A stretch of 39,721 nt of DNA from positions 1 through 39,721 of IMG/VR virus record IMGVR_UViG_3300045973_000943; one strand, given 5' to 3'. Position 1 is the stretch's first letter. Every line of letters begins with the position of its first letter. The notes beneath the pieces are model-generated. The model saw nothing but the letters and a program-made list of their open reading frames with translations. It was not told the origin of the DNA and did not search any database. Origin of the DNA: a virus. A program made the position numbers and the translations under genes. Below are positions 9,142 to 26,588 of this stretch, piece by piece.

Positions 9142-9502
9142 AAAATACATTGAACTCAGCACAACCCTGGCCGGGCAGGGCCTCACCGTCCTGCCCACCA
9201 GGGACTTCGACAGCATCCTGATCCAGCTGGCACGCCTGGCTCAGTTCGAGCGGCTGATGCTCACCAAAGCTGAATCGGACAAACGCCTAGCCGAAACCAT
9301 CAACATGGTCCGGCTGATCCAGGACTCCGTACCGACTCTGTCCGCTGATCAGCCGCGGCATCTGGAGATATTGGATATCCCCACCATCGTCACCGACGTT
9401 CACCATGAACTGCACGATCAGCTTGGGCGCTGCGCCCGGATTGATCACAACTCTATCCACGCCGCCACCGCGGCCTTCATCGGAATTTTGTTCCGGAGGT
9501 AA
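9131..9502 (+). CDS. Hypothetical early protein
   Basis: A 123-residue, mostly helical soluble protein. ATG 9131 is chosen because GGAAGGAAG precedes it; the frame is open to 9095. Features are a hydrophobic/charged helical centre (ILIQLARLAQFERLMLTKAE) and a C-terminus rich in His (VHHELHDQ, RIDHNSIHAA). No family is recognised. It lies in the early/middle operon with short intergenic gaps. Confidence 0.6.
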   Translation: MTPEKYIELSTTLAGQGLTVLPTRDFDSILIQLARLAQFERLMLTKAESDKRLAETINMVRLIQDSVPTLSADQPRHLEILDIPTIVTDVHHELHDQLGRCARIDHNSIHAATAAFIGILFRR

Positions 9503-9766: not shown

Positions 9767-9967
9767 ATGGGCAAAAAGAAAGAAAACCCGCGCTACAACA
9801 TCCTATCCATCCGGGTCAGCGACTACGAGCTGCGCGAGATATCCGAACAGATCAGCGGGACTACCCGGCAGGATTTTATACTTCAAGCCGTCCTTGAAAA
9901 ATGCAGCCGAGATCGACAGACGTCGCTTGATCATCACCTGCGCTCCCTGGGAGTAACCGACCTATGA
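9767..9967 (+). CDS. Small ribbon-helix-helix-like protein
   Basis: A 66-residue protein with the pattern of a ribbon-helix-helix DNA-binding fold: a basic start, a short beta strand (ILSIRVSD), helix 1 (YELREISEQISG) and helix 2 (TRQDFILQAVLEKC). The ATG at 9767 is used; the frame is open to 9749 but would overlap the upstream gene further. It ends in a 4-base overlap with the next gene. Confidence 0.6.
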   Translation: MGKKKENPRYNILSIRVSDYELREISEQISGTTRQDFILQAVLEKCSRDRQTSLDHHLRSLGVTDL

Positions 9968-10440
9968 AATGCCTCACACCACAACTCACCGTCCAGGGTT
10001 TCCCGGTCCGCACCGGCCCTGGCGGCTCATATATCCCAAAGACCGCTCAGGGGATGCAATCCCTGGTGGTCTGGAGAAACGAAAACACCGAGCGTCCTGA
10101 TCACTGGTTGTGTGATGAAATCAGCCGGGGCTTTAATAAACTGCTGCTGCTGCTGCGCCTGGATGGCGTCCCCGCCGCCGAGCTGATCGCCATGACCGCC
10201 GAGCTCTGGGTAGATACCATCGGTTACGGCATGAACGAAGAACAGGACCGAGAGCGCATAGCCAGGGGTTTTACCTTGCTACAGGGTAAAATCAAAAAGT
10301 GGCCGCAACCGGTGGAGTTGATGCAGATCCTGCCCACCCGCATGAAATCAACGTCCAAAACCACGGAAGCCCCGGTCAGCGACGAATCACATGCGCGCGG
10401 CCGTGCTGCCTTTGATGAAATATTGGAGGGGCTGAAATGA
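9964..10440 (+). CDS. Hypothetical phage protein of the WPxPxxxxxxLP type
   Basis: A 158-residue protein of unknown function. The central part is helical, and residues 105-125 carry KKWPQPVELMQILPTRM. A WP.P....LP.R pattern recurs in small replication-region proteins of many phages. ATGA overlaps join it to both neighbours, so it is part of the same operon as mor. Confidence 0.65.
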   Translation: MKCLTPQLTVQGFPVRTGPGGSYIPKTAQGMQSLVVWRNENTERPDHWLCDEISRGFNKLLLLLRLDGVPAAELIAMTAELWVDTIGYGMNEEQDRERIARGFTLLQGKIKKWPQPVELMQILPTRMKSTSKTTEAPVSDESHARGRAAFDEILEGLK

Positions 10441-12024: not shown

Positions 12025-12053
12025 TTGACAGCCAGACCGAAAAAGAGTACAAA
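12025..12053 (+). promoter_or_regulatory. Late promoter, copy 1 (TTGACA-N17-TACAAA)
   Basis: TTGACA at 12025-12030 and TACAAA at 12048-12053 with a 17-base spacer ending AAAAGAG. The same boxes, spacing and AAAAGAG recur at 25821-25849 before the tail block. Transcription would start near 12060 and meet a terminator within about 50 bases. Confidence 0.65.
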
Positions 12054-12077
12054 CCCGAAAACAGCAAAAACCACCTC

Positions 12078-12114
12078 AAGCCCCTTTCCTCCCCGGATTG
12101 GGGCTTTTCTTTTT
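12078..12114 (+). terminator. Rho-independent terminator right after late promoter 1
   Basis: Stem AAGCCCC (12078-12084) with GGGGCTT (12100-12106), extended inwards by CC/GG, followed by CTTTTCTTTTT. It ends a transcript of only about 55 bases from the upstream promoter unless read through. Confidence 0.75.
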
Positions 12115-12134
12115 CAGCGTCTGAAAGTACTTCC
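12115..12134 (+). repeat. Shared post-terminator element, copy 1
   Basis: CAGCGTCTGAAAGTACTTCC, identical to 25896-25915 and at the same position after the T-tract. Weaker similarity continues for about 25 bases in both copies. This is a candidate regulatory RNA or DNA element. Confidence 0.65.
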
Positions 12135-12186
12135 ACCATTGTTCCCCGTATAGTCCCCACCAGATATTGAACACCTCCTTGCAATA

Positions 12187-12213
12187 GGGGCCGGGCATCC
12201 GGTCCCGCTTTTT
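12187..12213 (+). terminator. Second rho-independent terminator before the lysis genes
   Basis: GGGGCCGG and CCGGTCCC form an 8-bp stem (one G-T) with a GCAT loop, followed by GCTTTTT. It lies 24 bases before the endolysin start, so late transcription must pass two terminators. Confidence 0.65.
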
Positions 12214-12236: not shown

Positions 12237-12755
12237 ATGCAACCCATTCAACGCTCAATCAATGCCATCGTGATCCATTGCGCCGACACCCCCAACGGCC
12301 GGCCGCAAACCGTCGCGGATATCGACTCCTGGCATCTGGCCAACGGCTGGCAGCGCGTACCGTACTGGCGCATGAACAAAACCTTTAACCAGGGATTAAC
12401 CTCCATCGGTTATCACTTCGTCATCTATACCGACGGATCAATCCATACCGGCCGTCACCCCGATGAGATCGGCGCCCATGTCGGCGGGCACAACAGCAAC
12501 ACCATCGGCATCTGCCTGGTCGGTAAAAATGCTTTTTCAGCCCTGCAGTGGGCGGCCCTGGAGCAATTGGTAGCCGAGCTTCAGACCAACATCAAAGCCG
12601 GTCCCCATCATCTGAATGCCAAGGTCCTGGGTCACTACCAGTTCGATACTGCCATCAAACAGGGCAAAACCTGCCCCAACTTCGACGTCCCGGCCTGGCT
12701 TCAGGCCGGTATGAAACCTGATCCCAAAAATATCTTTACCCCCAAGGAGGCTTAA
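12237..12755 (+). CDS. Endolysin, N-acetylmuramoyl-L-alanine amidase
   Basis: A 172-residue amidase_2/T7-lysozyme-type enzyme that cuts the bond between N-acetylmuramic acid and L-alanine. Zinc-ligand regions are IVIHCADTP near residue 14, HVGGHNSNTIGICLVG near 80-95 and the C-terminal KTCPNFDV. GYHFVIYTDGSIHTGR is the conserved core strand. There is no signal peptide, so it needs the holin-like partner to reach the wall. It is the first gene of the lysis block. Confidence 0.92.
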   Translation: MQPIQRSINAIVIHCADTPNGRPQTVADIDSWHLANGWQRVPYWRMNKTFNQGLTSIGYHFVIYTDGSIHTGRHPDEIGAHVGGHNSNTIGICLVGKNAFSALQWAALEQLVAELQTNIKAGPHHLNAKVLGHYQFDTAIKQGKTCPNFDVPAWLQAGMKPDPKNIFTPKEA

Positions 12756-15555: not shown

Positions 15556-15674
15556 CCTTCAAAGAGTACGAAGAGATGATCGCGATCATCGAAAGAAAGG
15601 GCTACACGCCGCTCTACATGGCGCGGCACATAGCAATACGGCTGATCATGGCCGGATTCATACCAGGAGAATAG
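15552..15674 (+). CDS. Small helical protein
   Basis: A 40-residue ORF coupled by ATGA to the previous gene, with GAGGCGTAA upstream. MTFKEYEEMIAIIERKGYTP and a second helix are amphipathic. No function is recognised. Confidence 0.5.
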   Translation: MTFKEYEEMIAIIERKGYTPLYMARHIAIRLIMAGFIPGE

Positions 15675-17642: not shown

Positions 17643-18124
17643 TGGAAGCCCTGTCACCCTCAATCATCCAGATTATTATCAACACGCTCGGCCTGCCGGG
17701 CCTGGTCTTCGTAATCTGGCACTTCGATAACAAACGCCTGGATAAACAGCAGGGTCTCTACCGTGAACAACAGCAGCAGTACCGCGATCTGTACGAAAAA
17801 GAGCAGGCCAAAACCCGCGAACTGTACGAGAAGGAACAGCAAAAGTTACGCGAATCCTATGACCGTGAGCATCGCTGCGACCGCGACATGTTCAGCAAGA
17901 TCCTCACTCAGTACAAAGAAGACGTCAACGCCATCGCCGGGCTCTACAAAAGCAATGTCCACCTGGTATCCGATTACGACAAGGGTATGGCCCGGCTGGA
18001 GCGCATGGCCGAGGACATGATGTCCATCGTCTCGCTCAACGCCCAGACCAATGCCCAGCTGGCCGACGCCATCAAGAACAATACTTTTTGCCCGCAGGTC
18101 AGGAAGGAGCTGGGAAAATCATGA
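17642..18124 (+). CDS. Membrane-anchored coiled-coil protein (spanin-like)
   Basis: A 160-residue protein with one N-terminal membrane span (residues 8-27, IIINTLGLPGLVFVIWHF) and a long charged coiled coil with YEKEQ repeats (residues 30-80). This topology is that of an inner-membrane spanin (Rz), but similar proteins of unknown role are common in Mu-like phages. ATG 17642 is chosen for TTGGAGG; the frame is open to a TTG at 17627. Confidence 0.65.
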   Translation: MEALSPSIIQIIINTLGLPGLVFVIWHFDNKRLDKQQGLYREQQQQYRDLYEKEQAKTRELYEKEQQKLRESYDREHRCDRDMFSKILTQYKEDVNAIAGLYKSNVHLVSDYDKGMARLERMAEDMMSIVSLNAQTNAQLADAIKNNTFCPQVRKELGKS

Positions 18125-23639: not shown

Positions 23640-25817
23640 ATGAGTCTGAAGAGCTTTAACGAGATCCGCGATATGTTGGAAAAAGCCATTACCGATCGCC
23701 TCGGCGCCGACAAGTGGTGCTACATCGTGGATTTCTACCCGGACAGTCTGGTCTACGAATCGTCCGACCGTTATTACCAATGCAGTTACTCAATCCTGGA
23801 GGGTGTCGTCACTTTGGGTGACGCCACCGAGGTCGAGCGCAAGATCGAGTATGAGCCGGTCACGGCCACCGGCGCAATCATGGCCGCCAAGGCCGGAGAC
23901 GCCACCGGCTACAAATGGGATGTTCGCGTCGCTGCCTTTGGCATTGATCTGAACGGCAACTACTGGGACAAAGACGTACTGACCGCAGCCGTGGCCAAGT
24001 TCGAGGGCGCCAAGGTCTTCATGCTGGATGAAGCCCAACATCAAGCCAAGCCACATCGATTCGGCAAGCCGGTTGGCAATATGGTCGGCGTGCTGCAGGG
24101 TGCCACCGCCAAAAGCGACGGCATCTATGCCACCCTGATTCTGCTGCCCACTGCTACCTGGCTGCGCGACAACCTGGTGGGCTGTGCCGATATGGGCCTG
24201 GAAAATGTTCTGGGTCTCTCCGTGGATGTTAACGGCAAAATGGGCACCAAAATGGAGGGTGGCCGGAAATACCCCATGATGGCCAGCATTCATGCCGCAA
24301 CCGTGGACGTAGTATATGACCCCGTAGCCAAAGGGGAATTCTTAAAAATGGCGGCTGCCCGGCAGACCGATCCAAAACAGGAGGAAACACCAATGATCAT
24401 GATGTTATTGGCCGGCCTCGCCCGGCACAACAAACCAGAAGCGGATCGCATTCAGGCCGCAAGGGACAACAAGATCCTGACCGATGAACAGGCAGTGATA
24501 CAGGTATTTGCCGCACTGGATGCTGCAGCCGGCGGACAGATGCAGGCCGGAGCTGAGACGCTCCAGGAGATGAAACTGGTCGCCTGCGGTATGAAACTCG
24601 ACAGCCTGTTGTCCACCAGCAAACTGCCCGACGCGGTCCAGACCAAGCTGCGCGCCAGCTTCAACGGGGTTGTATTTCAGGAGGAATCCCTCCAGGCTGC
24701 CATCAAGGCCGAAAAGGAATGCCTCGACAGCCTGGCCGCCTCGGGTGTCGTCAACGGCGCCGGCGATGTGCGGATCATCCTCGACCAGCACGAAAAACAT
24801 GGAACCATGCTGGATGATTTCTTTGCCGGCAAGGTCCAAAGCTTCAAGGCCTGCTACCAGGACATCACCGGAGACTTGCGCGTCAGCGGCGATCTCCGCG
24901 ATGCGGGGCGTATGTCGGCCTCCATCGGCACCGCAAGTCTACCCGAGCTGCTTGGTGATTCAATCGCCCGCAAAATGGTCCAGGAATACAACGCGGCTAA
25001 CCTTGGCGACTGGAAAAGGGTCGTCCAGAGCGGACCGGTCTTCGATTTCCGTACCAACCGCCGCGTCCGTGTCGGCGGCTACGGCGATCTGGCAGCCGTT
25101 GCCCAGGCCGGTCCCTATGCGGCCGTCGCTTCTCCCACCGACGAAGAGTCGACCTACGCCGCCACCAAGCGGGGCGGCACAGAAGATATCACCCTGGAGG
25201 CCATCCGTAATGACGACGTTCTCGGCCTGCGCCGGGTACCGCAGAAGCTGGGCCGCGCTGCAGCCAGGACGCTCTACAAGTTTGTTTTCCAGACCCTGAT
25301 CGGTGCCAACCCCAACATTTACACCGGCACTGCCCTGGCTCTGGCTGGTCAGAACAACATCGGCGCCGCGGCTCTGGCCAAGGCTTCCCTGCTGGTCGGC
25401 CGTCTGGCCATGCAGAAGCAGACCGAAGCGGACTCCTCGGAACCCCTGGGAATTTCCCCCCGCTTTCTGCTGGTCCCGGCCGATCTGGAGACTACAGCCT
25501 ACGAGCTGATCGCGGTGCCCAATACCGGATCATTCGTCCCTACTGCCGCCAGCGCCGTCAACGCCCAGACCTGGGAGCTGATCGTCGTCAAAACCTGGAC
25601 CGATGCCAACAACTGGTGGCTGATGGCCGATCCCGCAGACATCCCTACCATCGAGATTGGTTTCCTCGACGGCAAAGAAGAACCCGAACTGTTCGTCCAG
25701 GATATGCCCAACGTAGGCAGCATGTTCAGTAACGACAAGCTCACCTACAAGATACGTCACATCTACGGCGGGTCGGTGCTTGACTACCGCGGTTTCTACG
25801 GGGCCATCGTGGCATAG
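23640..25817 (+). CDS. Fused prohead protease-scaffold-major capsid protein
   Basis: A 725-residue protein combining functions that Mu splits into I, Z and T. Residues 75-240 look like a prohead protease (AAFGIDLNGNYWDKDVL, a His in DEAQHQAKPHRFGKPVG, Ser in LGLSVDV). Residues 252-400 are a helical scaffold-like linker. Residues 400-725 look like an HK97-fold capsid (TGDLRVSGDLRDAG, FVFQTLIGANPNIYTG, ending GGSVLDYRGFYGAIVA). AGGAGG at 24379-24384 sits 8 bases before an in-frame ATG at 24393 (residue 252), so a shorter scaffold-capsid product is probably also made. The promoter-terminator unit for the tail block follows at once. Confidence 0.85.
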   Translation: MSLKSFNEIRDMLEKAITDRLGADKWCYIVDFYPDSLVYESSDRYYQCSYSILEGVVTLGDATEVERKIEYEPVTATGAIMAAKAGDATGYKWDVRVAAFGIDLNGNYWDKDVLTAAVAKFEGAKVFMLDEAQHQAKPHRFGKPVGNMVGVLQGATAKSDGIYATLILLPTATWLRDNLVGCADMGLENVLGLSVDVNGKMGTKMEGGRKYPMMASIHAATVDVVYDPVAKGEFLKMAAARQTDPKQEETPMIMMLLAGLARHNKPEADRIQAARDNKILTDEQAVIQVFAALDAAAGGQMQAGAETLQEMKLVACGMKLDSLLSTSKLPDAVQTKLRASFNGVVFQEESLQAAIKAEKECLDSLAASGVVNGAGDVRIILDQHEKHGTMLDDFFAGKVQSFKACYQDITGDLRVSGDLRDAGRMSASIGTASLPELLGDSIARKMVQEYNAANLGDWKRVVQSGPVFDFRTNRRVRVGGYGDLAAVAQAGPYAAVASPTDEESTYAATKRGGTEDITLEAIRNDDVLGLRRVPQKLGRAAARTLYKFVFQTLIGANPNIYTGTALALAGQNNIGAAALAKASLLVGRLAMQKQTEADSSEPLGISPRFLLVPADLETTAYELIAVPNTGSFVPTAASAVNAQTWELIVVKTWTDANNWWLMADPADIPTIEIGFLDGKEEPELFVQDMPNVGSMFSNDKLTYKIRHIYGGSVLDYRGFYGAIVA
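24379..24395 (+). promoter_or_regulatory. Internal ribosome site and start in the capsid ORF
   Basis: A perfect AGGAGG, spacer AAACACCA, then ATG (24393-24395) in the same frame as the large ORF. The expected nested product is 474 residues, without the protease domain. In Mu the scaffold Z is likewise made from an internal in-frame start within I. Confidence 0.65.
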
Positions 25818-25820
25818 TTC

Positions 25821-25849
25821 TTGACACCGTAGTTTCAAAAGAGTACAAA
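25821..25849 (+). promoter_or_regulatory. Late promoter, copy 2 (TTGACA-N17-TACAAA)
   Basis: TTGACA at 25821-25826 and TACAAA at 25844-25849 with a 17-base spacer ending AAAAGAG, identical in boxes and spacing to 12025-12053. It lies immediately after the capsid stop. Confidence 0.65.
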
Positions 25850-25858
25850 GCAGAAAAA

Positions 25859-25895
25859 AAGCCCTTATCCCCCGTGGATAGGGGCTTTTCTTTTT
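25859..25895 (+). terminator. Rho-independent terminator right after late promoter 2
   Basis: AAGCCCTTATCC pairs with GGATAGGGGCTT (12 bp, one G-T) around CCCGT, followed by TTCTTTTT. It could end capsid-operon transcription as well as transcripts from the promoter 10 bases upstream. Confidence 0.8.
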
Positions 25896-25915
25896 CAGCG
25901 TCTGAAAGTACTTCC
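25896..25915 (+). repeat. Shared post-terminator element, copy 2
   Basis: CAGCGTCTGAAAGTACTTCC, identical to 12115-12134. It is followed by a pyrimidine-rich stretch similar to the other copy up to the next start codon at 25944. Confidence 0.65.
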
Positions 25916-25943
25916 CGCCGTTCCTTCCTGTAATCTCCCTCCC

Positions 25944-26588
25944 ATGCCACTCTACGACCTGACAAAAAGCCGTGTAAAAGACGACTCCGGAAAACTGCTC
26001 GACCCTTTTGACTACAATGATGGAGTCGCTTCGGCTATTGCCCGTTACAGCAAGGTCCGTCCACTGGAGCTGGTTGCCGACACCCCTGGCAGCGGCAACC
26101 ACGATTGCGATCTCCCCAATGACTGGCTCGAAGGGTTTTCAGTAATTACCCAGGTGGAATACCCGGTCGACCGCATACCGGCCAACATCATCGACCGGGC
26201 CGATTATTCAATTTACGCAACGCCGATCGGCAAGAAGCTGCGCATCCTGATCGCCACACCCGCCGCCGATGAGATGATCCGCCAGACCTATACCGTCATG
26301 CACACCGAAGCAACTATCCCGGCCATAGATCTGGACGCCGTCGCCAGTCTGGCCGCCTCGATCTGCTGCCACCAGTTGGCCCTGGCCTTCGGCAATACCA
26401 GCGACCCGACCATTCAGGCCGACTCCGTCAATTATCGCTCCAAGGGTGACGAATACGCACGCCGGGCCAAAGAGCTGGAAGGCCGCTACAAGAGCCATCT
26501 TGGCATCAAGGACGGTGATACCGTTGCGGCCGCGTCGACAACCGCGCCGCCACCGGAAAAAGACTCACGTCCCTGGCATTCTAGATGA
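25944..26588 (+). CDS. Head-tail connector-like protein
   Basis: A 214-residue protein, first of the tail block. It starts PLYDLTKSRVKDDSGKLLDP and has a helical pattern (LDAVASLAASICCHQLALAF, then SKGDEYARRAKELEGRYK), as in head-completion/adaptor proteins. The function is inferred from place between capsid and neck genes. The ribosome site before ATG 25944 is weak (CTCCCTCCC region), so translation may depend on the leader. Confidence 0.65.
   Translation: MPLYDLTKSRVKDDSGKLLDPFDYNDGVASAIARYSKVRPLELVADTPGSGNHDCDLPNDWLEGFSVITQVEYPVDRIPANIIDRADYSIYATPIGKKLRILIATPAADEMIRQTYTVMHTEATIPAIDLDAVASLAASICCHQLALAFGNTSDPTIQADSVNYRSKGDEYARRAKELEGRYKSHLGIKDGDTVAAASTTAPPPEKDSRPWHSR

Follow-up and report, generated by a model that had tools for sequence, protein, structure and literature searches.

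Late transcription in this phage very probably starts at two copies of an activator-dependent promoter, P2, so placed that both late blocks would come under a switch of the type known from phage Mu. Each copy is part of a composite module in which a sigma70-type promoter (P1) is followed by an intrinsic terminator, a 20-nt element, and a second -10 element (Table 1); as we read the sequence, the 20-nt element is part of P2, which lies 3' of the terminator.

Genomic context of the late modules

The window (the whole stretch of DNA analyzed, a virus record of 39.7 kb) has the gene content of a Mu-like phage, as judged by gene calls and family matches. Along with the CI-type repressor, it encodes a transposase, an AAA ATPase in the MuB position, GemA, a Mor-family activator, an amidase, and a terminase and, further, a portal-like protein, a capsid/protease protein, tail genes, and a DNA methyltransferase. 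The nearest relatives of the terminase come from uncultured phages and prophages, several of them from Desulfuromonadales-type bacteria. The capsid region includes a 725-aa protein (23640-25817) with a C-terminal major-capsid domain (residues 423-720, PF25209), which matches both head and protease-type PHROG families; it may combine in one polypeptide the protease/scaffold and capsid roles that Mu divides among genes (I, Z, T). A 158-aa protein of unassigned function (phrog_8159, 9964-10440) is encoded immediately 5' of Mor and is present too in the related loci L066 and L067, in which Mor was not found. A gene for a radical SAM protein (PF04055, 11125-11952) separates Mor from the late block; the genes in this interval vary among the relatives L057, L005, and L003, resembling a cargo site.

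Table 1 Genes and predicted control elements of the window
Feature	Position	Strand	Basis or remark
CI-type repressor gene	945-1658	minus	
Mor-family late transcription activator gene, 105 aa	10437-10754	+	PF08765, E=1.2e-6, above the cut-off; PHROG late transcriptional activator, E=4.6e-8
Predicted P1 of lysis module, TTGACA-N17-TACAAA, sigma70-type, ending in AAAAGAGTACAAA	12025-12053	+	Exact; kept in L003, L005, and L057
Predicted intrinsic terminator, lysis module	12078-12114	+	Fold -17.7 kcal/mol, z -3.3 versus shuffles
Candidate Mor-type activator box TTTCA-GCGTC-TGAAA, copy 1	12112-12126	+	Centre about -42 from predicted start
20-mer CAGCGTCTGAAAGTACTTCC, copy 1	12115-12134	+	Repeat search
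Predicted P2 -10 element TATAGT, lysis late promoter	12149-12154	+	Predicted start about 12161; TATAGT or TGTAAT kept in relatives
GC hairpin and T-run in leader of predicted P2 lysis transcript	12187-12212	+	Hairpin scan; fold of 12161-12212, z only -1.4
Amidase gene, opening the lysis/packaging block	12237-12755	+	PF01510, E=5.7e-17
Predicted P1 of tail module, TTGACA-N17-TACAAA	25821-25849	+	Exact
Predicted intrinsic terminator, tail module, 14-bp stem and T-run	25857-25895	+	Fold -20.9 kcal/mol, z -4.4 versus shuffles
Candidate Mor-type activator box TTTCA-GCGTC-TGAAA, copy 2	25893-25907	+	Centre about -41
20-mer CAGCGTCTGAAAGTACTTCC, copy 2	25896-25915	+	Repeat search
Predicted P2 -10 element TGTAAT, tail late promoter	25929-25934	+	Followed by ATG of the tail gene at 25944; spacing shared with L057 and L070
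First gene of tail block	25944-26588	+	N terminus of product aligns with L057 homologue

The first module (12025-12154) lies upstream of the amidase and terminase genes, and the second (25821-25934) follows the capsid gene and precedes the tail/connector genes, in agreement with a preliminary description of this DNA in which duplicated control modules head both late blocks. That description also named the P1 motif, a strong terminator, and an identical element after it at both sites, and all three hold. TTGACA-N17-TACAAA is found at these two sites only in the whole window, and both hairpins fold far below their shuffled counterparts. The 20-mer occurs exactly twice in the record, its reversed control not at all; terminator and 20-mer together form the longest direct repeat of the window, a block of 57 nt with 89% identity between its copies (12078-12134 and 25859-25915). 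The predicted P1 transcript, about 30-85 nt long, should end at the terminator.

Three further candidates were set aside. A weak P1-like match at 15560, considered as a third module in the window, is coding sequence. A host-wide motif is likewise not supported: TTGACA-N10-AAAAGAGTA is rare in the genomes of the relatives, where its matches are phage modules, regions upstream of genes or tRNAs, or ambiguous. Nor do we claim a host base preference at the last -10 position, the pattern count being confounded by coding sequence (Asp...Tyr-Lys) and the direct check limited to four tRNA genes.

A predicted activator box and second promoter past each terminator

Two features absent from the preliminary description define P2. 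One is the second -10 element, at a near-constant distance 3' of each 20-mer; the other is a 15-bp dyad with 5-bp inverted repeats, whose left arm is the end of the terminator T-run and whose remainder is supplied by the 20-mer. From the box centre to the end of the -10 hexamer there are 34-35 nt, which places the centre near -42 on the assumption that transcription starts 7 nt past the hexamer. The -35 position of P2 has no TTGACA-like hexamer, the hexamer 17 nt upstream matching at 2/6 positions in the lysis copy and 1/6 in the tail copy. The dyad is short and not significant taken alone; its centre lies between -39 and -43.5 from the expected start in all 14 modules with an assignable -10. 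An AGTACT palindrome within the 20-mer was considered as the activator site and rejected, since it is centered near -33 and is lost in L057, whereas the outer dyad persists. Wider searches with the 20-mer core and with GGGGCTTTTCTTTTTCA gave mostly chance matches.

In Mu, the Mor site at Pm is a 16-bp element of two 5-bp inverted repeats around a GC-rich 6-nt spacer, centered at -43.5 and replacing the -35 element (PMC4390567); the dyad spans -51 to -36, and at the late promoters C binds a dyad related to that of Mor (PMC4287176). We read the late switch of the present phage as Mor-type because the placement of its dyad fits the Mu Mor site and the phage encodes a Mor-family activator. The earlier suggestion that the late switch differs from that of Mu is not supported. 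The activator is related only distantly to Mu Mor/C, has homologues with 67-74% identity in L003, L005, and L057, and yielded no Mor structure when used in a sequence search of solved structures.

The parallels extend to the layout as a whole. As at the Mor/C promoters of Mu (Pm, Plys, PI, PP, Pmom), a Mor-family activator is coupled with a dyad of 5-bp arms and GC-rich spacer near -43, which stands in place of the -35 element and is followed by a -10. In the Mu record, predicted terminators overlap Pm (9179-9200), directly precede Plys (10383-10406), and precede PI (17908-17953); hence, a terminator followed by an activator-dependent promoter is the layout of Mu itself, which the present modules share along with late blocks that start at lysis and in mid-genome. 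The differences are that the box letters are not those of Mu, that one Mor/C-type gene was detected here, and that the tail promoter follows the capsid gene, with an mRNA that is probably leaderless. Further, a conserved sigma70-type P1 precedes the terminator in the present phage, whereas only weak sigma70 promoter matches lie upstream of the Pm, Plys, and PI terminators. P1 is the new part, conserved in about a dozen phages and with no clear Mu counterpart.

The mechanism that we propose takes the observed sequence, conservation, spacing, and activator gene as its starting point and predicts binding, activation, start sites, and P1 activity. A dimer of the Mor-family protein, an early-region product, would bind the box TTTCA-N5-TGAAA; the occupied box would replace the -35 element and bring the host sigma70 RNA polymerase to TATAGT or TGTAAT, about 35 nt from its own centre. 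The terminator would block incoming transcription, with the end of its T-run doubling as the left arm of the box. Both late promoters appear to share a single Mor/C-type protein, giving a cascade that would pass from early to late with no counterpart of the Mu middle step. P1 would help P2, either by supplying polymerase or by controlling access to the box.

The predicted late transcripts

The tail boundary offers a separate indication of where transcription may start. The ATG lies 9 nt past the -10 hexamer in the window and L070 and 8 nt past it in L057, no Shine-Dalgarno sequence precedes it in any of these three, and the alignment of the window protein with its L057 homologue begins, at the N terminus, with the ATG at 25944. 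On these grounds the tail-block mRNA is probably leaderless, starting at P2 near 25941; this placement of the gene start hardly fits a transcript from P1.

The lysis transcript predicted from P2 has a leader (12161-12212) containing CACCTCCTT or ACCTCCTT, which resembles the 3' end of 16S rRNA (anti-Shine-Dalgarno), and then a GC-rich hairpin. Leaders of this kind can be seen in L005, L057, L003, and L044, with similar hairpins in the first three; a T-run follows in L005, L003, and the window itself. Attenuation or translational masking of the late lysis mRNA is therefore possible.

Conservation among related phages

The composite module recurs in related phages at both kinds of boundary. The full composite (P1, terminator, element, and -10) is present at the lysis boundary of L003/L004, L005, and L057 and at the tail boundary of L057, L070, and L198; since related phages carry the same module, it is not a product of chance. 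The metagenomes of L005 and L004 also yielded the separate contigs L070 and L198, respectively, and we infer that these are probably the other halves of those phages. Taking them as such, four phages appear to carry the module at both late positions, a count that relies on these links.

Comparison of the two modules within each of these four phages indicates which segments are shared. For the 19 nt past the T-run, identity is 0.84-1.0 between the copies of one phage (mean, 0.89) and averages 0.56 between phages. The 10-nt P1 spacer (0.42 within and 0.38 between phages) and the leader (0.27 within and 0.38 between) show no within-phage sharing between lysis and tail modules. A duplicated, phage-specific element after the terminator would be the mark of an activator box rather than of put or nut sites. 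The box letters vary from phage to phage, and this covariation is suggestive of each activator recognizing its own box.

More-distant Mor-bearing relatives retain the terminator and box, e.g., L020 (TTTTGACGCCCGTCAAAA) and L050 (TTTTGCACCCCGCAAAA), and P1-like promoters occupy the same place in L059, L043, L050, and L020 and, in weaker form, in L065 and L049. L041, L066, and L067 keep P1 and the terminator, with no clear P2 -10 where this spacing would place it; no match to Mor was found in L041, nor in L066/L067 by tblastn with the window Mor. At the lysis boundary of these three, TTGACA-N10-AAAAGAGTAAACA (L041 6893, L066 4468, L067 4354) is separated from the terminator by a longer leader, partly conserved as AACTTTCTCGCAT, and the expected Mor position is taken by a small protein with no annotation (107 aa in L067). 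A separate Mor-bearing group, L044, L047, and L054, has a conserved block of its own, TCTCAAGTGCTTTGGTAG, downstream of Mor and near the lysis boundary, after a GC-rich palindrome, which is perhaps another type of activator box.

The role of P1

Activation of P2 by Mor leaves P1 unexplained. In our reading, P1 does not itself give rise to the late mRNA, and the fact that it is conserved points to an auxiliary role beside P2. One possibility, which would supplement activation by Mor and is no alternative to it, is that P1 and the terminator regulate P2 through polymerase traffic; we consider this possible, if somewhat doubtful. In one version, polymerase released at the terminator would remain on the DNA and be captured at P2 by Mor, which is plausible because, in vitro, polymerase keeps sigma after termination, moves along the DNA by diffusion, and starts again at promoters close by (PMC6978380). 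In the other, the terminating polymerase would cover the Mor box and keep P2 off until Mor is abundant, which is plausible because such a polymerase would sit against the box.

P1 is indeed close to P2 and in the same orientation, and the box takes its left arm from the last bases of the T-run. A scan of both strands of the window and related loci gave 101 strong terminators; a P1-like promoter precedes six of the eight that have a Mor-type box after them and 12 of the 93 others (Fisher p 3e-4); at least six of these 12 are modules missed by the strict box filter (L041, L043, the L057 tail copy, L059, L066, and L067). This terminator scan is unbiased, whereas counts over all modules are biased, as L134, L135, and L198 were found via P1. 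Against a role in traffic, P1 is not obligatory, as L018 and L038 have the terminator and box with no P1 detected; Mu has no clear P1; and the distance from P1 to the box is variable. Since L018 and L038 have the box without P1, and L041, L066, and L067 have P1 without such a P2, P1 appears to be common yet neither necessary nor tied to a P2 of this spacing.

A stronger form of the same idea, in which P1 and the terminator would form a dedicated device for polymerase delivery or gating, with polymerase fired at P1, released beside the box, and captured by Mor at P2, seems unlikely. The arrangement of a promoter, a terminator, and a close downstream promoter, all codirectional, is that of the in vitro single-molecule work on recycling after intrinsic termination (PMC6978380, PMC6978322). 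In that work, however, recycling is a general property of the Escherichia coli polymerase, not a dedicated phage device; such a device is here predicted from sequence.

A trans-acting RNA or antitermination

It is very unlikely that P1 serves to make a short trans-acting RNA, with the terminator as its 3' end and the rest incidental. A transcript of the predicted length with a strong hairpin is expected at each site, but the leader before the hairpin is unconserved, also when the lysis and tail modules of a single phage are compared, and no Rfam match was found in the window.

Also very unlikely is the reading favored in the preliminary description, late expression by antitermination, in which polymerase starting at P1 would be modified by a phage factor and read through the terminator into the late genes. 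At lambda pR'-tR', the Q protein modifies the polymerase, which then reads through the terminator. The resemblance lies in a promoter followed within about 50 nt by an intrinsic terminator, and the pairing of a sigma70-type promoter with a terminator is real, being kept in relatives that include L041, L066, and L067, which lack P2 at this spacing. The site of a Q- or N-type factor must, however, precede the terminator, and it is past the terminator, too late for factor loading, that the shared element lies, with its own -10 after it; the P1 spacer and early leader, where such a site would be required, show no phage-specific sharing between its lysis and tail modules, their identity being hardly different from that between phages. 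Nor was any annotated antiterminator family or Q-like gene found among the early proteins scanned (part of the early open reading frames, several of unassigned function), and the ATG of the tail gene, with no Shine-Dalgarno sequence, stands at the expected P2 start.

Implications

With activation of P2 by Mor as the preferred reading, an apparent antitermination switch becomes a Mu-type activator switch, and the promoter logic of Mor would extend to uncultured phages of Desulfuromonadales-type bacteria. It also suggests an anatomical rule for finding such promoters: a terminator T-run, a 5-bp dyad, and a -10 about 35 nt from the dyad centre. Feeding of P2 and occlusion of its box predict opposite effects of a P1 mutation. 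The conserved and apparently abortive P1 beside each switch may serve as a natural test for regulatory recycling or occlusion at terminators in cells; were the dedicated delivery device to prove true, phage late control would be exploiting, in nature, the recycling of polymerase after termination.
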